36,196 nucleotides of DNA, taken from positions 1 to 36,196 of IMG/VR virus record IMGVR_UViG_3300030329_002278, one strand, 5' to 3'. Under the pieces are notes generated by a model. It had not been told where the DNA came from, did no database searches, and was given only the letters and a program-made list of their open reading frames with translations. A program made the position numbers and the translations under genes. The stretch is from a virus. Below, in pieces: positions 560 through 28,009 of this stretch. Every line of letters begins with the position of its first letter. The first letter of the stretch is position 1.

Positions 560-1011
560 TGCCTGACCATATAAGAAACCAAATTAGAGACAGGACAGCA
601 GTTGCCGTAACAGGATTAACTACTACAGGATCAAATGTATTTCAAACTCCAATGGTCACGCCAGAAGAACAAACATTCCCTGCATTGGCAGTATATGTGG
701 ATTCAGAAGTAAGTTCCGAAAATGCAACTATGGGCAATATCTTGCGTGAATGTGTCTTGCATATTGATGGTTATGTTGAGGCAAGTGCAACTGTACTTGA
801 TACTCTGGATTTGATAAGCAAAGAAGTTGAAGTGGCAATGGCAACCACAGGAATTGTAACTTCTGGTGGAGCAGATTTGGTAGAAAATCATTTCTTGGAA
901 TCAACAGATATTGAAATCATTGATACAGAACCACGACCATTGGGGGTTGTCTCAATGTCGTATTATGTCCAATATCGGACTTCATTCTCAGCACCAGATG
1001 TGGTGGTTTAG
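559..1011 (+). CDS. Tail terminator-like protein (lambda gpU-type candidate)
   Basis: This is a 150-residue protein starting MPDHIRNQIRDRTAVAVTGL. The N-terminal helix followed by strands and the PALAVYVDSE segment resemble lambda gpU/minor tail proteins, which end tail-tube polymerisation. The start is the ATG at 559 overlapping the previous stop; an open frame reaches further up to 517 but would overlap the upstream gene without reason. It is followed by a small gene and then the tail tube gene, which supports the role. The presence of two terminator-like genes in a row is common, one probably acting as the connector plug. Assignment is by order and general fold features. Confidence 0.55.
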   Translation: MPDHIRNQIRDRTAVAVTGLTTTGSNVFQTPMVTPEEQTFPALAVYVDSEVSSENATMGNILRECVLHIDGYVEASATVLDTLDLISKEVEVAMATTGIVTSGGADLVENHFLESTDIEIIDTEPRPLGVVSMSYYVQYRTSFSAPDVVV

Positions 1012-13348: not shown

Positions 13349-13876
13349 GTGAAAATATTAAATAATTGTTGTAGTAAAGATACACTAGATACTTTAAAGG
13401 ATGTTTCATCTTCCTCACCAAATTGGAACTTAAATTGGCCTGTTGGGGGCAAATTTTCAATAGATGATAAATTTTTAAAATTAGATATTGTCCAAGATGG
13501 TCATATTGTACATCCTTTTTTGGCAGGATTATCATTAGCTTTATTACTTCAGATTTACGAAGTGAGCAGTAAGGATTTGTTTGCGCCAAATCTTATGTTT
13601 TGTAGTATATCTATTAAAGATAAACACAGGAAAGATAATATACATACAGATCATACAGAAGATGAACGTAGTAAGAAGTTGGTTAAAATTGTTGGTTTAC
13701 TTAATAGTGATTGGCAAGAAGATTGGGGTGGGGGGTTTATTTATAATGGTCAAAGTAATTATATCAAACCTACTTCATTTTGTATTTTTGATCCAAAAAA
13801 ACCTCATTGTGCTGATGAAATATATACAAATAAAAAAAGATTTTTAATTGATTTTTCAGTAGCCTTAAATGAATGA
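13349..13876 (+). CDS. 2OG-Fe(II) dioxygenase, fibre-linked
   Basis: A 175-residue protein starting at GTG (13349). The Fe/2OG signature is visible: H99-T-D101 (HTD), distal H153 (KPHCADE) and R164 (KKRFLIDFS) for 2-oxoglutarate, with WGGGFIYNG between them as in prolyl-hydroxylase-like folds. Such enzymes hydroxylate protein side chains or small molecules. Small oxygenases next to fibre genes are common in marine phages, but their substrate is unknown. A virion or fibre protein substrate is my inference. The upstream stop is 2 bp away and the next gene overlaps by ATGA. It is separate from the TET/JBP gene at 26441. Confidence 0.8.
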   Translation: MKILNNCCSKDTLDTLKDVSSSSPNWNLNWPVGGKFSIDDKFLKLDIVQDGHIVHPFLAGLSLALLLQIYEVSSKDLFAPNLMFCSISIKDKHRKDNIHTDHTEDERSKKLVKIVGLLNSDWQEDWGGGFIYNGQSNYIKPTSFCIFDPKKPHCADEIYTNKKRFLIDFSVALNE

Positions 13877-14181: not shown

Positions 14182-14352
14182 AAATGACAGCTATAGGCAT
14201 ATTTTTGGATAATTACGAAATGGCTGTAATAACGCTTAGAACTTCCTTAGTAAAAAGAAGTAAAATACAAAGGTAAGTGGGTTTGGGGTATTCGTTTCTT
14301 TGTTTTCACGTTAAAACCAACGGATTACACAGGTTTTTGAAAGACTGGAAAA
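14182..14352 (+). other. Intergenic stretch with a possible frameshifted small gene
   Basis: There is no convincing intact gene. A short frame from ATG 14183 (MTAIGIFLDNYEMAVITL...) stops at 14275. Near the A-run at about 14252-14257 the adjacent frame continues with protein-like sequence (KWVWGIRFFVFTLKPTDY) and stops before 14340. Read together across one shift they would make about 50 residues, so this may be a decayed or mis-sequenced small gene. No promoter or terminator is clear. Confidence 0.3.
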
Positions 14353-14520
14353 ATGGTGCTAAAAAGATTTTTAAAGATAATTTTTGGGCGAGAAAATGAA
14401 GAAACTGACGATGTTTATGAAAAAGCATTGAAGCAAGGCGAAACACTTTATGGGAAAAAAAATAAAAAAAAATTAACGATCCAAGATTTTGATAAACCGA
14501 AAAAAAAGAAAAGAAAATAA
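14353..14520 (+). CDS. Small Lys-rich protein
   Basis: A 55-residue protein starting MVLKRFLKIIFGRENEETDD and ending in a lysine cluster (DKPKKKKRK). The short hydrophobic, basic N-terminus could form an amphipathic membrane helix. The start is the ATG at 14353; no strong ribosome site precedes it (gactggaaaa). It lies inside the lysis region. I do not recognise a family. Confidence 0.4.
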   Translation: MVLKRFLKIIFGRENEETDDVYEKALKQGETLYGKKNKKKLTIQDFDKPKKKKRK

Positions 14521-14541
14521 TGTTTAATCCTTCAAGGCTAT

Positions 14542-15391: not shown

Positions 15392-15841
15392 ATGTCTCTT
15401 TTGCGTAGAGAGCTTTTTAAGAACATTTACATAATAGGAGTCGGGCTTATGATGATGACTAAGAACTTTTCAACCGATGAAATGATGTGCCATTGTGGTT
15501 GTGGTAAAAGCGACATGGATGCTGAATTTATGAAAATGCTTCAAGAGTTGAGAGAAATAGCAGGATTCCCTTTTCGTATCAATAGTGCCTTTCGTTGCCT
15601 CAAACATAATTCCGCAGTAAGTTCCTACAAAACAAAAGCAGGGATTCACACCTTCGGTAAGGCTTGTGACATTTCTGTTAAAACAGTTAGCACTACTCAA
15701 GCACTTCGTTTAATTAAACAAGCACAGGATATTGGCTTCACAGGATTCGGCTTAAACTTAAAAGGTGAAAGGAAAGGTCGATTTATCCACATAGACAACC
15801 GAGGTGAAGACTTTTCACCACCAGCTGTATGGACTTATTGA
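15392..15841 (+). CDS. Endolysin: M15-family D,D-/L,D-carboxypeptidase-like peptidase
   Basis: A zinc peptidase that cuts peptidoglycan stem peptides at lysis. Numbered from the in-frame ATG at 15449, the fold markers are NFSTDEMMCHCGCG (6-19), NSAFRCLKHN (45-54), H67 and D74 (IHTFGKACDIS) and H114 (FIHID), giving the H-D-H zinc site of the M15A/peptidase_M15_3 family. Two starts are possible. ATG 15392 has ggggag five bases upstream and adds 19 residues (MSLLRRELFKNIYIIGVGL), a basic then hydrophobic stretch like a weak signal or anchor. ATG 15449 has aggag ten bases upstream and gives the usual cytoplasmic form. Both products may be made. Confidence 0.85.
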   Translation: MSLLRRELFKNIYIIGVGLMMMTKNFSTDEMMCHCGCGKSDMDAEFMKMLQELREIAGFPFRINSAFRCLKHNSAVSSYKTKAGIHTFGKACDISVKTVSTTQALRLIKQAQDIGFTGFGLNLKGERKGRFIHIDNRGEDFSPPAVWTY

Positions 15842-16040: not shown

Positions 16041-16123
16041 AAAGGCAATAATCTTTTAACTTCTTTGCCTTTCCTGCCATCAAAAAGCAAAATCCCCCCA
16101 ACTATTACTAGCCAGAGGGATTT
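16041..16123. terminator. Convergent bidirectional terminator region
   Basis: It lies between the + strand lipoprotein and the minus strand metallopeptidase. The first inverted repeat is AAAGGCAA (16041-16048) with TTGCCTTT (16065-16072). The second is AAATCCC (16090-16096) with GGGATTT (16117-16123), followed by tttgtttatttattt on + and by ttttgcttttt on minus. The U-rich tails on both strands support termination in both directions, although the second loop is long. Confidence 0.6.
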
Positions 16124-16129
16124 GTTTAT

Positions 16130-16513
16130 TTATTTAAGTTCTTCCGAATGTTCACAGATTTCCCTTTTGATCCTTTCAATTTGATCAGGCTCTAAAGGGT
16201 CGCTTCTAAATTGCGCATGCTTATAACCATAATTGTGCATCAATTCGTGAGCAAACAGTTGGGCAATTCTACTAAGGTAATTAATATGCGGAGAACTGTT
16301 TAATGAAAGGAACATATCCCATCCTGTATGATTGTTACCAATCCACATAGGGTAAAATGCTCTCCCACTATTCCTGCCATTCCGAACTACTACTCGAAGT
16401 TGCTTCCATTGAGGTAGCCTACCTTCTCGTAATGCAATTAAATAGTGAACTAAACCAAACAACTTTTTTAACTTCTTTGTTTGGTATACGGAAGTATTCT
16501 TGATTATCCTCAT
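16130..16513 (-). CDS. Zinc metallopeptidase with HExxHxxGxxH motif
   Basis: The only minus-strand gene. A 127-residue protein with the extended zinc motif HELMHNYGYKH (H89, E90, H93, G96, H99), which matches the metzincin signature HExxHxxGxxH. SprT-like phage peptidases also carry HExxH, and the size fits a minimal catalytic domain. The start at 16513 is chosen because cAGGAGAGaaat stands directly before it; an open frame runs on to 16570 without a better ribosome site. No signal peptide, so it should act inside the host, perhaps on a host regulator or phage protein. Its own strong promoter (16590-16618) faces away from the replication genes. Substrate unknown. Confidence 0.75.
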   Translation of the reverse strand: MRIIKNTSVYQTKKLKKLFGLVHYLIALREGRLPQWKQLRVVVRNGRNSGRAFYPMWIGNNHTGWDMFLSLNSSPHINYLSRIAQLFAHELMHNYGYKHAQFRSDPLEPDQIERIKREICEHSEELK

Positions 16514-16589
16514 ATTTCTCTCCTGTATTGAGGTTGTCAAAGAACTTGCTAAAGGGAAAACTAGACCCATTTCTAATTTTCCTACTTTT

Positions 16590-16618
16590 AGTATACCTTA
16601 TCTGTTTCAAAATGTAAA
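16590..16618 (-). promoter_or_regulatory. Sigma-70-type promoter for the metallopeptidase gene
   Basis: On the minus strand: -35 TTTACA (16613-16618), 17-bp spacer, -10 TATACT (16590-16595). Both boxes match the consensus 5 of 6 and are identical to those of the divergent + promoter at 16761-16789. Distance to the start codon is about 76 bp. Confidence 0.8.
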
Positions 16619-16631
16619 GCTTTTTATTTTT

Positions 16632-16720
16632 TAATATCAGTTACTTACAGGTTTCGGTAAAATTAAAGTGCGTAATATCAATTAGTTGTGTCAGGGAAAA
16701 AATTATTTTCGGCTAATTTT
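16632..16720. promoter_or_regulatory. Candidate operators between the divergent promoters
   Basis: Two direct copies of a 15-bp site, TAATATCAGTTACTT (16632-16646) and TAATATCAATTAGTT (16673-16687), match at 12 of 15 bases and start 41 bp apart, about four helical turns. A perfect inverted repeat follows: AAAATTA (16699-16705) with TAATTTT (16714-16720). These are good candidates for binding by a regulator; the ribbon-helix-helix-type protein at 19751 is one possible binder. Confidence 0.4.
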
Positions 16721-16730
16721 GGGGTTAAAT

Positions 16731-16778
16731 AAAAAAAAGTAAAAAAAAGTAAAAAAAAGCTTTACAAAGTAAAAAAAA
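16731..16778. repeat. Phased A-tracts upstream of the early promoter
   Basis: Runs of eight A bases start at 16731, 16741, 16751 and 16771. The first three repeat with an exact 10-bp period (A8GT, A8GT, A8GC). Phased A-tracts bend DNA, and A-rich DNA just upstream of -35 works as an UP element. The region could also help DNA unwinding. Confidence 0.7.
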
Positions 16779-16789
16779 TAAAATATACT
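16761..16789 (+). promoter_or_regulatory. Early promoter (sigma-70 type)
   Basis: -35 TTTACA (16761-16766), 17-bp spacer, -10 TATACT (16784-16789), identical in both boxes to the divergent minus promoter. It directly follows the phased A-tracts. The first gene downstream starts at 16865, so the leader is about 70 nt. It should drive the replication arm. Confidence 0.8.
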
Positions 16790-16814
16790 AAATGAAAAAC
16801 GCAATTTTCCAAGA

Positions 16815-16824
16815 CCCGATCGGG
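16815..16824. promoter_or_regulatory. Palindrome CCCGATCGGG in the early leader
   Basis: A perfect 10-bp palindrome of high GC in a very AT-rich leader, about 20 bp after the expected transcription start. It may be an operator or a site for a host factor. Confidence 0.35.
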
Positions 16825-16864
16825 CAATAACGTTCATCGGTAACAATCAAGTAAAGAGGTAAAT

Positions 16865-17287
16865 ATGAAAAAAGCAACCCAAGAAACTCTAGCAAAACTG
16901 GCTAAGAGAATTGATTGGAAATCACGAACCAAGAGTAATGAATCATGGAGGAAATGGCTGGATGCCGTAAATGAATTTATGGGTATGTGCGATAAATGGC
17001 AGTTGCATTATCTGATTCCAGAAAAAACTATGGGCAAACACAAAATTGAATGTGGTGAAATTGTGGGAAAGGTGCCGATAGAAGAACAAATCAAATCAAT
17101 TAAAAGTAGCCCACGAAGTCAAACTAGGTGGATTCAATATCAGAATGTTGAATATAATTGTGCAAGGCATTTGGCTGATAACGAAAATCCATATATTAAC
17201 GAACTTCGCAAGAAGATAACCAATTTGGCTGAAAATAGAGATTACGCCAAATATTTTATTTACACACTAGAGCAGGAGGTAATATGA
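16865..17287 (+). CDS. First early gene, unknown function
   Basis: A 140-residue basic protein behind the early promoter with ribosome site agagg. It is rich in Lys, Trp and Asn (WKSRTKSNESWRKWLDAV; SSPRSQTRWIQYQNVEYNC), has no membrane segment or catalytic motif that I recognise, and overlaps the next gene by 4 bp (ATGA). As the first transcribed gene it is a candidate for host takeover or counter-defence, but that is position only. Confidence 0.7.
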   Translation: MKKATQETLAKLAKRIDWKSRTKSNESWRKWLDAVNEFMGMCDKWQLHYLIPEKTMGKHKIECGEIVGKVPIEEQIKSIKSSPRSQTRWIQYQNVEYNCARHLADNENPYINELRKKITNLAENRDYAKYFIYTLEQEVI

Positions 17288-19554: not shown

Positions 19555-19754
19555 CTAATAATAGTTTATTGAATAAAATTAATAAAAATATTGAAAAGGT
19601 ATTTCAACAAGAAATTGATGAGATGTTTGAATATTATGGTGGTCAAAATGCACCATTTGAAGAAATTAATAGGATAGAAATGTACAGGGATTTGGCGATG
19701 GGAGTTATTGACAAATTCAAAATTAATACAAACCTAAAACGAGGAGTAAAATGA
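19551..19754 (+). CDS. Small early protein
   Basis: A 67-residue helical protein (KINKNIEKVFQQEIDEMFEY...) with ATGA overlaps with the genes on both sides. No Cys or membrane segment. No family recognised. Possibly works with the ribbon-helix-helix-type protein encoded next. Confidence 0.6.
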   Translation: MTNNSLLNKINKNIEKVFQQEIDEMFEYYGGQNAPFEEINRIEMYRDLAMGVIDKFKINTNLKRGVK

Positions 19755-23123: not shown

Positions 23124-24026
23124 ATGGAGGTTAAAGGCGAAAAAGAAAGAGTATGTTTTTTGTTGTACAAAGATTTTTTTAATTCAGTTGAACATTTCTC
23201 TGACCAAGATTTGGGTAAACTGTTTAGAGTTATACATGAATATCAAAGAAGCGATAATTGGACACTTGAGCAGGAACAAAAAGTTGATCCTATTATTCGT
23301 GTGGCGTTTGCATTTTATAAAAATCAATTTATTCTCGATGATGCAAAATGGCAGAAAAAAGTTAATTCTAGCAGGAATAATGGGGCAAAAGGTGGCAGAC
23401 CTGTAAATCCCAATAAACCTACTGGGTTAACTGGGTTATCAGACAAACCCAAAAAAGGCGTTACTGATACTGTTACTGAAACTGGAACTGAAACTGAAAC
23501 TGCAATTGTAAAAGTTAATGATCAAATAAATATTAAAAACTTAAAACAAAAGGAGTTGGTTGAATCAGTTATTCATGACTTAAATGATAAGTTGAATCTC
23601 TCAAGGGGATTTTCTTGTAAATCTAAAAACAATGTTTCAAGAATTGTGGCAAGGTTGAAAGAAGGATTTACTTTAGATGACTTTTTAGTTGTTCATAAAA
23701 ATAAAATTGCCCAATGGCAAAATGATCCTGAAATGGCAAGATTTTTGAGACCTGAAACTCTGCATGGTAATAAATTTGAAAGTTACCTGAATGAAAAAGA
23801 GGTCAAAGATATTACGCCAACAAAACCAAAATACCAAACTGCAGATGAACGCAGAAATGAAAATAACAAACAAGTTTTTGAAAACACCATAAAGGAGATT
23901 GACAATGTACACAGAACCGGAACAGGAACAGGAACAGGAAATGATGAAACAGAGAATATTGGGGCAGGATTCTCAAGCAAAGAAACAGAAGGCAATAGCA
24001 GTTTCTTTAAACAGCTTCGGAGTTAA
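23124..24026 (+). CDS. Replisome organiser / replication initiation protein
   Basis: A 300-residue protein. The N-terminal ~100 residues (FLLYKDFFNSVEHFSDQDLG, FILDDAKWQKKVNSSRNNG) match the DUF6291-type start of phage replication proteins. After a Thr/Glu-rich linker (residues ~115-130), the C-terminal domain has SRIVARLKEGFTLDDFLVVH, QNDPEMARFLRPETLHGNKF and ESYLN, the pattern of the phage replication C-terminal domain (Phg_2220_C). It should bind the origin and load the host helicase with the next gene product. The end (RTGTGTGTGND) is encoded by GGAACA repeats that also encode the next gene in another frame. Ribosome site aggag. Confidence 0.85.
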   Translation: MEVKGEKERVCFLLYKDFFNSVEHFSDQDLGKLFRVIHEYQRSDNWTLEQEQKVDPIIRVAFAFYKNQFILDDAKWQKKVNSSRNNGAKGGRPVNPNKPTGLTGLSDKPKKGVTDTVTETGTETETAIVKVNDQINIKNLKQKELVESVIHDLNDKLNLSRGFSCKSKNNVSRIVARLKEGFTLDDFLVVHKNKIAQWQNDPEMARFLRPETLHGNKFESYLNEKEVKDITPTKPKYQTADERRNENNKQVFENTIKEIDNVHRTGTGTGTGNDETENIGAGFSSKETEGNSSFFKQLRS

Positions 24027-24388: not shown

Positions 24389-24958
24389 ATGGAAATAATC
24401 CAACGTAAAATTGAAGAATTGGTTTCGGCTGAATATAATCCACGCCAAATGACAGGAGAACAACGTAAATCTTTAACTGATAGTATTAAAAGATTCGGGT
24501 TGGTTGATCCAATCTTGGTAAATATAAACCCTGAAAGGAAAAACATTATTGTAGGAGGTCATCAGCGAGTTACTATTGCAAAAGAATTAGGAATTGGCGA
24601 AGTTCCAACTGTAGAAATTGACCTTACGCCAGAAAAGGAACGTGAATTAAATATTCGGTTAAATAGAAATACTGGTGAATGGGATTGGGATGCGCTTGCA
24701 AATCATTTTGATTCTACTCAGTTAAGTGAATGGGGTTTTACTGATAATCAACTAACTGGCTTTGCAACTATAGATTATTCAATCCTTGATGATGCGGATG
24801 TTGATTTGGAAGCATTTAAAGATGGAACACGCAAAGCAATTCAAATTGAATTCAAGTTGGAAGATTACGAGGAAGCAAATACTTTGGTTAATGCAATGAG
24901 AGACGAAGGTGAATATGTAGGTGGCTTTATTTTAGCTTGCCTTAAAAACAGGGTATGA
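24389..24958 (+). CDS. ParB-like nuclease/CTPase-fold protein of the DNA-modification cassette
   Basis: A 189-residue protein with the ParB N-terminal fold: EYNPRQM (15-21), IKRFGLVDPILVNIN (33-47) and the box IVGGHQRVTIAKELG (54-68) with the GGHxR motif. There is no HTH region or C-terminal dimerisation domain as in chromosomal ParB, so it is not a partition protein. Single ParB domains of this type lie beside DNA methylase or DNA modification genes in phages. Here it heads an operon with two glycosyltransferases and a TET/JBP oxygenase. A role in guiding the modification to DNA sites is my inference. It overlaps the next gene by ATGA. Confidence 0.85.
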   Translation: MEIIQRKIEELVSAEYNPRQMTGEQRKSLTDSIKRFGLVDPILVNINPERKNIIVGGHQRVTIAKELGIGEVPTVEIDLTPEKERELNIRLNRNTGEWDWDALANHFDSTQLSEWGFTDNQLTGFATIDYSILDDADVDLEAFKDGTRKAIQIEFKLEDYEEANTLVNAMRDEGEYVGGFILACLKNRV

Positions 24959-25614
24959 TTCCAAAAATTATTCATCAAATTTATTTTAATTTATCAAATA
25001 CAGTTTTAGCCGATCACAAAATATTTTACCAAAGCCACAACATTTGTAAAAAATATACAGATTATCATTATATGTTGTGGTCTGAAAAAGAATGTGAGGA
25101 TTTGTTGAACTGTGAATTTCCTCAATATAAAGATTTCTACAATAATTTTAGATATGAAATACAAAAGATAGATTTTATTCGTTTTTGTATTTTATATAGA
25201 TATGGTGGGTTTTATGTAGACTTGGATATGTTTATGTTAAAATCCTTTAATGAATTACTAGCGAGAAAAGTTGTTTTCCATAATGTCAGACACGTCAAAC
25301 CTAATTGGAGTTTTATCGAAAATGATTTTATGGGTAGTGTACCCAAGTTTCAATTATGGTTAGATATAATGGAAAAATGTGTTGAAAATTATAAAGATAA
25401 AGAGGTCATTGATATTTATAAAATATGGAAGGGGAGGTTCATATTGCAAACGACTGGCCCGAAATTCCTTTCAAGATTTATCCAGAAAAAATTCCCGAAA
25501 TTTACGCCAATGAAATTAGTTTATACAAAATTCCAATCTGATCCAAAAGATGGTTATTATTTGCAGGATTATAAATTAAATACTTGGATAAAAAATCAGC
25601 AAGGGATATTGTGA
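24955..25614 (+). CDS. GT32-type glycosyltransferase (DXD sugar-binding)
   Basis: A 219-residue enzyme. The start IPKIIHQIYFNL is the usual beginning of GT32/OCH1-type transferases, and IDFIRFCILYRYGGFYVDLD (72-91) holds the DXD motif (D89, D91) that binds the metal and nucleotide sugar. WSEKECEDLL (42-51) is also typical. Known members use UDP- or GDP-sugars on glycans. Here the gene is locked by 4-bp overlaps between ParB-like and TAGT genes, so the acceptor may be a modified base or the first sugar on it. Decoration of virion or host surface is the alternative. Confidence 0.85.
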   Translation: MIPKIIHQIYFNLSNTVLADHKIFYQSHNICKKYTDYHYMLWSEKECEDLLNCEFPQYKDFYNNFRYEIQKIDFIRFCILYRYGGFYVDLDMFMLKSFNELLARKVVFHNVRHVKPNWSFIENDFMGSVPKFQLWLDIMEKCVENYKDKEVIDIYKIWKGRFILQTTGPKFLSRFIQKKFPKFTPMKLVYTKFQSDPKDGYYLQDYKLNTWIKNQQGIL

Positions 25615-26444
25615 TACCAATATATGTGCCTTCATATAACAGGGCAAAAACAATCAAGACTTCACTTTACCTTGATGAATGTGGGCTTGATTATAAGCTG
25701 TTGTTGCATACAGAAAAATGTAAGGAAGATTACCTGAATGCAGGCAGGGTTACAGAGGATAAGATAATAGTAACTGGAGCGGATCGTGGAATTACTAATC
25801 AGCGAAACTGGATTGTTAATAATTTAGCTGAAAAAGGTAAATGGTATATTTCTTTGGATGATAATATCTCAGGCTTCAAAAGAGTGCGAAGTCCCTTGTA
25901 TGAAAATAAGAAAAAGCTGGATGTTAATGGTTCCGATATTAGTCAGGCTGATTATGATTTTGAGATAAATGCAAAGGAATTTATTTCCTTACTGGAAAAA
26001 GATATTGAAGTGGCTGAACAAATAAAAGTTGAATACGTTGGTTTTGCTACTGTTGGTAATTATTTCTTTAACAGTAAAAAATATAAAACTGTTGGGTATG
26101 TTATTTCAAAAGCAGTTGCAATTAAATATAATGGCTTGGAGTATGATAAAAAGTTGGAAGCGATGGAGGATTTTGGTTATTGTGCTGACCAAATTATAAG
26201 GAACAATGCAGTATTAATTAATTGTTGGATAAAACCCACAGCAGGGCATTATGAAGAAGGAGGAATTGGAACTTACGACCAGAGAGTTGAAAGGAAAATA
26301 ATTGATTGCGCATATTTGTTAAAAAAATATCCTGAATTTTTTAGGTATAAAGTCAAAAAAGGTTGTCATCCAAAAGCTGAATTACAAATACGTTTTAATA
26401 ATCCTGACCAAATAAAACAATGGAAGCGTAAATATTTATCATGA
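25611..26444 (+). CDS. TET-associated glycosyltransferase (TAGT-like)
   Basis: A 277-residue GT-A-type enzyme. The start is GTG 25611, which overlaps the GT32 stop as GTGA and has aaggg upstream; the frame is open to 25584. Features: IPIYVPSYNRAKTIKT (2-17), LLLHTEKCKEDYLNAG (30-45), GITNQRNWIVNN (60-71) and WYISLDDNISGF (78-89) with a DD-type metal site at D83-D84. This is the pattern of the transferase family that travels with phage TET/JBP genes and puts sugar on hydroxylated bases. The next gene is such a dioxygenase, with ATGA overlap. The sugar donor is unknown. Confidence 0.8.
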   Translation: MIPIYVPSYNRAKTIKTSLYLDECGLDYKLLLHTEKCKEDYLNAGRVTEDKIIVTGADRGITNQRNWIVNNLAEKGKWYISLDDNISGFKRVRSPLYENKKKLDVNGSDISQADYDFEINAKEFISLLEKDIEVAEQIKVEYVGFATVGNYFFNSKKYKTVGYVISKAVAIKYNGLEYDKKLEAMEDFGYCADQIIRNNAVLINCWIKPTAGHYEEGGIGTYDQRVERKIIDCAYLLKKYPEFFRYKVKKGCHPKAELQIRFNNPDQIKQWKRKYLS

Positions 26445-27271
26445 AAGAATTGCATTTGGAATTGGTTGAACACGAAACTAGGGTTGGGAAACGATGTGGG
26501 GAAATTGAACCGAATGTTACTGAAGATTGTATATTTTTAGATGAAGGAGAAAGAGTTGGATTTTATTTATCAAAAATTAATGGTAAATTGAAGCAGTTGG
26601 TTGAAGTTGCTAATAATGAATTTATTAGTGATAATGTTCCAAAGTCGGAAATGAGACGTGCCGATACAGTTAATAAATATTTTAAATTAAAAAACAGCAG
26701 GGAACCTACATATTACGGAGAAAATACTCAACTTGCAGATAAAATGGGTGTTATCCAAATGAGTGCTATATTGGGAAGTGTACCACCGAAAGCGCACTTC
26801 AGACGTCCTTATCCCGTCATATCCAGTGTTCATCAACAACCAAAGGCACAAACCTTTGTCAAAGCAATGGTTTTACTGGCGAGAGAATCAGAGTCTTTAG
26901 TAAAGAAATATTTGCCTGAAATTTACAAAAAACAATTAGAAGTTGTGTCTGAAGCTGTTCCTCCAAAATGGCAGTTCAGCCCAATGTTTACTAGTTCCAT
27001 TTCAAACTATAATATTTCTGCACCATTTCATATTGATACAGGTAACTTAAAAGATACTGTTAATTGCATTTTTACAAGAAGGTTTGATGCAGTAGGTGGA
27101 TGTTTGCATATTCCCGATTATAATATTACAGTTGAACAGGCAGATTGTTCGTTTCTGTGCTACCCTGCTTGGCGTAATGTACATGGTGTTACACCGATTC
27201 GTGCAAAGTCCTCAAAAGGATACAGGAATTCATTAATCTTTTACCCACTTAAAGGTTTCGATGGCTACTGA
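26441..27271 (+). CDS. TET/JBP-family 2OG-Fe(II) DNA base dioxygenase
   Basis: A 276-residue enzyme. The catalytic core is near the C-terminus: APFHIDTGN with H197 and D199, VGGCLHIPDYNITVEQAD (218-235), NVHGVTPI with distal H249, and KGYRNSLIFYPL with R262 for 2-oxoglutarate. The 'HGVTP' and 'R-N-S-L-I-F-Y' parts are characteristic of the TET/JBP family, which hydroxylates 5-methylcytosine (TET) or thymine (JBP). With the TAGT and GT32 upstream, it should make a hydroxymethyl base that is then glycosylated, likely to resist host nucleases. No C5 cytosine methyltransferase is in this genome, so the substrate is open. It overlaps the small-terminase candidate by 11 bp. Confidence 0.85.
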   Translation: MKELHLELVEHETRVGKRCGEIEPNVTEDCIFLDEGERVGFYLSKINGKLKQLVEVANNEFISDNVPKSEMRRADTVNKYFKLKNSREPTYYGENTQLADKMGVIQMSAILGSVPPKAHFRRPYPVISSVHQQPKAQTFVKAMVLLARESESLVKKYLPEIYKKQLEVVSEAVPPKWQFSPMFTSSISNYNISAPFHIDTGNLKDTVNCIFTRRFDAVGGCLHIPDYNITVEQADCSFLCYPAWRNVHGVTPIRAKSSKGYRNSLIFYPLKGFDGY

Positions 27272-27659
27272 TAAAACAGTAACAAAACAGTACGATCATT
27301 TAAAAGAACATCAGTTCAAGAAAGGTCAGTCAGGTAATCCTAATGGCAGACCGAAAGGCACTCGTTCAATTCCAGATATGTTGTTAAAGATTGGCGCAGA
27401 AGAAGGTACAAAAGATGGCCAGTTTACTAAATTGGAAGTGGTGTTGCGTAGGGTGTTTGAATATGCACTTGAAGGTAAGTCATGGGCAGTTGAATTTATT
27501 GCTGATCGAACAGAAGGTAAAGTGAGGCAGGAGTTGCAAGTTGGTATGATGCCAGATGTGGTGTTTACTCCAATTGAAGATGCGACTGAAGAAGAATGGA
27601 ATAAAAGAATTATTGAGAGTACAAAAGAACAATTACCTGCACCGAAGGATATAAACTGA
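27261..27659 (+). CDS. Small terminase subunit candidate (DUF5681)
   Basis: A 132-residue protein with the DUF5681 signature FKKGQSGNPNGRPKGTRSIP (24-43) and a helical middle (EVVLRRVFEYALEGKSWAVEFIADRTEGK, as a region). DUF5681 proteins stand next to large terminase genes in many phages and probably recognise packaging DNA. It overlaps the TET/JBP gene, so DNA modification and packaging genes are co-translated. The large terminase follows after a small gene and a repeat array that may be its binding target. Confidence 0.7.
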   Translation: MATDKTVTKQYDHLKEHQFKKGQSGNPNGRPKGTRSIPDMLLKIGAEEGTKDGQFTKLEVVLRRVFEYALEGKSWAVEFIADRTEGKVRQELQVGMMPDVVFTPIEDATEEEWNKRIIESTKEQLPAPKDIN

Positions 27660-27874
27660 TGGGAAAAGGGATATTGAATCGTGGTTCACAAGCACATAAA
27701 GTGAAAACAAAATACACACGCAAAAAGAAGCACAACAACCAAAAAGAATCAAAAGACCTGAGGGAACTGAACCGAAACAGTTCTATCAGAGCCCCTAAAT
27801 ATAGGGAACTGATGGCTAAAATTAAGGGAACTGAAGGAACTGAGGGAACTGAATCGAAACAGTTCTTTTATTGA
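27659..27874 (+). CDS. Small basic protein over the repeat region
   Basis: A 71-residue, very basic protein (KVKTKYTRKKKHNNQKESK) whose 3' half is made of GGAACTG repeats (IKGTEGTEGTESKQ). It overlaps the small-terminase candidate stop (TGATG). The repeats belong to the array that continues to 27994, so the DNA may matter more than the protein. It could still be a packaging accessory. Confidence 0.5.
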   Translation: MGKGILNRGSQAHKVKTKYTRKKKHNNQKESKDLRELNRNSSIRAPKYRELMAKIKGTEGTEGTESKQFFY

Positions 27875-27994
27875 AATATTTAGCCCTTGGTATCAGCTGA
27901 TCTACAATGATGAAAAGACCTGAAAAGACCTGAAAAGACCTGAAAAGACCTGAAAAAGGGAACTGAAAAGACCTGAAGGAACTGAAAAGACCTG
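27751..27994 (+). repeat. Repeat array between terminase genes (packaging-site candidate)
   Basis: AAAAGACCTG occurs seven times: 27751, 27913, 27923, 27933, 27943, 27966 and 27985, four of them in exact 10-bp tandem. A second motif, GGAACTG, is interspersed at 27763, 27805, 27828, 27836, 27845, 27959 and 27978. Hairpins GAACTG/CAGTTC form at 27764-27783 and 27846-27865, and a 10-bp palindrome ATCAGCTGAT lies at 27892-27901. The tandem units lie in the 135-bp gap before the large terminase. Repeated sites of this kind near terminase genes can be small-terminase binding (pac or cosB-like) sites. Confidence 0.75.
27846..27872 (+). terminator. Hairpin with T-rich tail before large terminase
   Basis: GAACTG (27846-27851) pairs with CAGTTC (27860-27865), loop of eight bases, followed by TTTTATT. 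The stem is short (6 bp), so it could be a weak terminator or attenuator, or part of the packaging site. The copy at 27764-27783 has no T tail. Confidence 0.35.
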
Positions 27995-28009
27995 AAAAAC
28001 TATTGTGAA

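Follow-up and report, generated by a model that had tools for sequence, protein, structure and literature searches.

The divergent intergenic region at 16514-16864 most likely controls early transcription in a marine, probably lytic siphophage; it would hold two divergent promoters of the sigma-70 type that the host RNA polymerase reads. The region belongs to a virus record of 36,196 bp, all of which was analysed and is called the window here. The two ends of this record overlap by 100 bp with 1 mismatch; therefore, the assembly is probably circular and complete, at about 36.1 kb. Among its products are a tape measure protein, a terminase, and an SPP1-type major head protein (774 matching records, the best phage records being 40-45% identical), and the record looks like that of a marine siphophage. 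The phage is taken to be marine from the metagenome names and from a gene at 13349-13876 whose relatives in the phage collection occur solely in cyanophages. The product of this gene, a 175-aa protein with no assigned function, is shared by the cyanophages P-RSM4, S-TIM4, and S-SSM5 (42-45% identity) and also occurs in other viral contigs.

The siphophage lineage is uncultured and apparently marine, and sequenced phages include no near relative of it; no DNA relatives, near or distant, were matched in the phage collection. Relatives were found through the endolysin, the 13349-13876 protein, the terminase (TerL), and SSB, and TerL is common to 11 viral contigs (L059-L069) at 75-86% identity. 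Protein scans that started from the early genes beside the gap and from the initiator found no relatives or remote ones. None of the relatives was shown to span the same gap, and no phylogenetic footprint of it was found; the exact promoter sequence is absent from the records of the 11 TerL relatives, none of which was shown to span the gap either. Scans of genomes for TerL and for the metallopeptidase family described below were empty, and thus no host is assigned. Rfam and tRNA scans gave no match.

The proposed divergent promoter pair

All called genes point rightward except that at 16130-16513, and 16514-16864 is the only divergent gap of the record. It also contains the AT-richest 60-, 100-, and 200-bp windows of the genome. 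The features in and around it are the following.

16514-16864, no strand: proposed control region between the divergent genes; 28% G+C, third in length among the gaps between called genes
16590-16618, minus: leftward promoter TTTACA-N17-TATACT; predicted start at about 16583
16761-16789, plus: rightward (early) promoter TTTACA-N17-TATACT; predicted start at about 16796
16731-16758, plus: three A8 runs (at 16731, 16741, and 16751), candidate UP-like element or curved activator, at about -65 to -38 of the rightward promoter
16771-16778, plus: fourth A8 run, in the -35/-10 spacer at about -21, in phase with the other three
16632-16646, plus: near-repeat copy 1, the 15-mer TAATATCAGTTACTT, possible operator
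16673-16687, plus: near-repeat copy 2, TAATATCAATTAGTT, 41 bp on, or about four helical turns
16616-16623, no strand: palindrome AAAGCTTT, possible shared operator, overlapping the -35 of the leftward promoter
16756-16763, no strand: palindrome AAAGCTTT, overlapping the -35 of the rightward promoter
16865-17287, plus: first gene downstream of the rightward promoter; 140 aa and of no known family, preceded by AGAGG
16130-16513, minus: leftward gene, 127-aa HExxHxxGxxH metallopeptidase-like protein, start taken from relatives; AGGAG Shine-Dalgarno-like site upstream
16090-16123, minus: hairpin followed by a T-rich tail, where the leftward gene is predicted to terminate

The sequence TTTACA-N17-TATACT has exactly two matches in the 36,196 bp, and these lie back to back and face apart, which confirms the identical boxes on both strands that the earlier note described as twin divergent promoters. 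Their 17-bp spacers are within the 16-18 bp of sigma-70-type pairs, they occupy both strands, and each lies upstream of a gene, as in such pairs. Each copy scores 10/12 against the sigma-70 consensus, which is assumed to be that of the host. When the -10 hexamer is taken as -12 to -7, the predicted rightward start remains at the 16796 proposed before, while the leftward one moves from about 16580 to about 16583. Gene starts then sit 69-70 nt downstream of the predicted transcript starts on both sides, with predicted leaders of 69 nt (plus) and 70 nt (minus). The likeness of the two copies extends past the hexamers, as AAAAAGCTTTACA-N17-TATACTAAA. The promoter arms match each other by BLAST over 42 bp at 79% identity, and a 37-nt inverted match between them holds at 29 positions (29/37). 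The match of such A-rich arms is, in part, an effect of composition.

Could these sites be consensus-like matches that arose by chance in an AT-rich gap? A single consensus score is weak: 30 sites in the whole window score at least 10/12, and across 14-22 kb promoter-like sites are as frequent as in shuffles (31 vs 29.8 expected). Nevertheless, just 1.1% of dinucleotide shuffles of the gap place sites of at least 10/12 on both strands, none of 300 equals the extended inverted match, and none of 5000 yields three A8 runs at an exact 10-bp period. In addition, the gene that each site faces requires a promoter. The combination of features is beyond chance, and an origin of the pair by chance is very improbable.

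The promoter pair is well formed, ordinary-looking, and of a known kind. As in the early control regions of siphophages, such as lambda pR/pRM and TP901-1, back-to-back promoters of sigma-70 type lie between the end of the lysis genes and the early genes, with possible operators between them. In contrast to those systems, neither a CI-type repressor nor a tyrosine integrase was found here, and the leftward gene is metallopeptidase-like. The region is also comparable to Pc/Pr of pLS20, where looping and a static bend accompany divergent promoters (PMC4207663). The two share divergent promoters, paired sites, and bent DNA (predicted here), although pLS20 is a Gram-positive plasmid with overlapping promoters and a known regulator.

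Phased A-tracts and candidate operators

Just upstream of the rightward -35, the A8 runs of the earlier note were found, three of them at an exact 10-bp period, and together with the fourth run they occupy one helix face. The predicted bend of the region lies between the 99th and the 99.96th percentile of a wedge-model curvature prediction, and the strongest predicted bend of the genome is instead at 27.9 kb. The A-rich stretch upstream of the leftward promoter is less regular. In both promoters, positions -46 to -38 agree at 8/9 with the proximal UP consensus. With A-tracts centred at about -41, -51, and -61 from the predicted start, in helical phase and adjoining the -35, the rightward promoter as predicted from sequence resembles promoters with UP elements or upstream A-tracts. 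In these, A-tracts increase promoter activity through the alpha subunit of RNA polymerase (Aiyar et al. 1998, as cited in PMC4081817 and PMC2412878).

A plausible course of events may be outlined for the proposed control region. The host RNA polymerase would start the early transcript at 16796 and transcribe the rightward early genes, which begin at 16865. The phased A8 runs may serve as a UP-like element where the C-terminal domains of the alpha subunits bind, and may bend the DNA, which would make the rightward promoter strong. The leftward promoter would transcribe the single metallopeptidase-like gene and stop at the hairpin at 16.1 kb. Lastly, the matched surroundings of the two -35 boxes, and likewise a TAATAT pair between the promoters, might allow one regulator to act on both promoters. 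The earlier reading of the region as a control region with divergent promoters is well supported by its position, the matched boxes, the phased A-tracts, the properly placed genes with their Shine-Dalgarno-like sites, and the predicted terminator of the minus gene.

The repeats that had been described between the promoters, a near-repeated 15-mer 41 bp apart and an inverted repeat, were both located. The 15-mers are identical at 13/15 positions, which 3% of shuffles equal, and the inverted repeat, AAAATTA-N8-TAATTTT at 16699-16720, is unremarkable. The palindrome AAAGCTTT has just two copies in the window, vs 1.95 expected per whole-window shuffle; for this reason, it is kept as just a weak lead to a shared operator. 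The protein encoded at 19751 is likewise a weak lead as a regulator, with a ribbon-helix-helix match below the cut-off (Pfam E = 0.06).

The suggested replication origin and other sites

The gap had also been proposed as a possible replication origin. Although it contains the AT-richest window of the genome and is predicted to be bent, it shows no turn in the skew, no exact DnaA box, and no iterons beyond the A-tracts; TTATCCACA occurs just at 15783, within the endolysin gene. The cumulative GC skew, suggested as a check around 16.6-16.9 kb, has its detrended extremes at 15,564 and 686 instead, and the local dip at the gap falls where the reversed gene and its flanks lie. Moreover, the replication-initiator gene is 6 kb off, at 23.1-24.0 kb, and has internal repeats. 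It is thus hardly likely that the region doubles as the phage replication origin. Judging by lambda O and SPP1, the ACTGAA repeats at 23463-23502, inside the initiator gene, would be a better origin candidate than the promoter gap.

Other sites in the genome also deserve mention. The 360-bp gap at 14182-14541 has A8/A9 runs (14455-14507), a strong predicted bend at 14336, and a promoter-like site of 10/12 at 14184-14213; possibly, it holds a promoter for the lysis genes. About 350 bp (27660-28009) separate the DUF5681 gene (27261-27659), which probably encodes the small terminase subunit, from TerL, while in L059-L065 the two genes abut. This stretch contains GAACTG...CAGTTC hairpins and, at 27911-27998, an array of 10-bp units, TGAAAAGACC, in 8.6 copies, where the strongest predicted bend of the genome is found. 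It may be an inserted element, a packaging site, or an array of iterons. A queuine tRNA-ribosyltransferase-like protein (phrog_6059) is encoded at 26441-27271, just downstream of two glycosyltransferase-like genes (24955-26444), and is possibly a DNA modification enzyme of the DpdA type.

The leftward gene and the lysogeny question

The leftward gene starts at 16513, and not at 16570, because all nine members of its family begin with M-K/R-I at this point. Its product carries the metzincin-type zinc motif HExxHxxGxxH as HELMHNYGYKH, with H89, E90, H93, G96, and H99 invariant in the nine sequences. It passes the cut-off of no Pfam family, those of peptidases included, does not match the Peptidase_M78 (ImmA/IrrE) profile, and has no relatives in the phage collection. 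For its structure model (pLDDT 81.5), the best Foldseek match was an MMP-7 chain at E 0.14, and VIA-align placed M61/M1 aminopeptidases, YbeY, and MMPs close together (Z 6.5-8.1; at the highest Z, rmsd 2.8 with 92 aligned). The model thus resembles zinc peptidases in general, and its match to one fold is not decisive. The other family members (L004-L012) come from viral contigs with varied gene contexts, and some have C-terminal extensions.

Temperate siphophages usually carry their lysogeny switch at such a position, between lysis and early genes. The region might be a remnant or variant of a switch, in which TAATAT would mark CI-like operators and the leftward gene would encode an ImmA-like anti-repressor; the phage would then have a temperate ancestor or itself be temperate. 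A distant relative, L083 (the full contig of L068), whose terminase is 75% identical, offers a parallel: at 564-938 (minus) it encodes a CI-type HTH protein (Phage_CI_repr, E 2.8e-10), which faces left and is followed by a divergent gap and then a RusA gene. Hence, the lineage may include temperate phages. The L083 gap contains TGTTAATATT twice, 42 bp apart, and the gap of the window contains TAATATCA twice, 41 bp apart. TAATAT pairs 40-43 bp apart occur in 0.04% (window) and 0.3% (L083) of shuffles, for a 6-mer that was chosen after looking. Furthermore, in ICE modules a cI-like repressor is found together with an HExxH protease (PMC10233336), and an HExxH protein is what the leftward gene encodes.

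By contrast, the genome has no match to Phage_CI_repr (PF07022; the control matched in 3/14 genomes), to tyrosine integrase (PF00589; the control matched in 14/14), or to Peptidase_M78, for which control genomes matched as well, and no homologue of the L083 repressor was found in it by a search that had no positive control. The metzincin-type motif of the leftward protein and the varied contexts of its relatives also argue against an ImmA-like role. Overall, a switch remnant or variant seems unlikely, and a switch ancestry of the region is possible. A more specific version, in which the operator pair of a CI ancestor was kept and a minimal metzincin-like protease encoded leftward took over control, for instance by cleaving a repressor of the host or of a superinfecting phage that binds the same boxes, is highly improbable.

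The early control region of a probably lytic phage, with its two divergent promoters, is the preferred reading. It provides predicted promoter positions that are open to testing for an uncultured siphophage lineage, along with a corrected start for a small metallopeptidase-like gene that several viral contigs carry. Should the TAATAT pairs prove to be operators, the lineage would show how a control region of the lysogeny type can be kept without its repressor.
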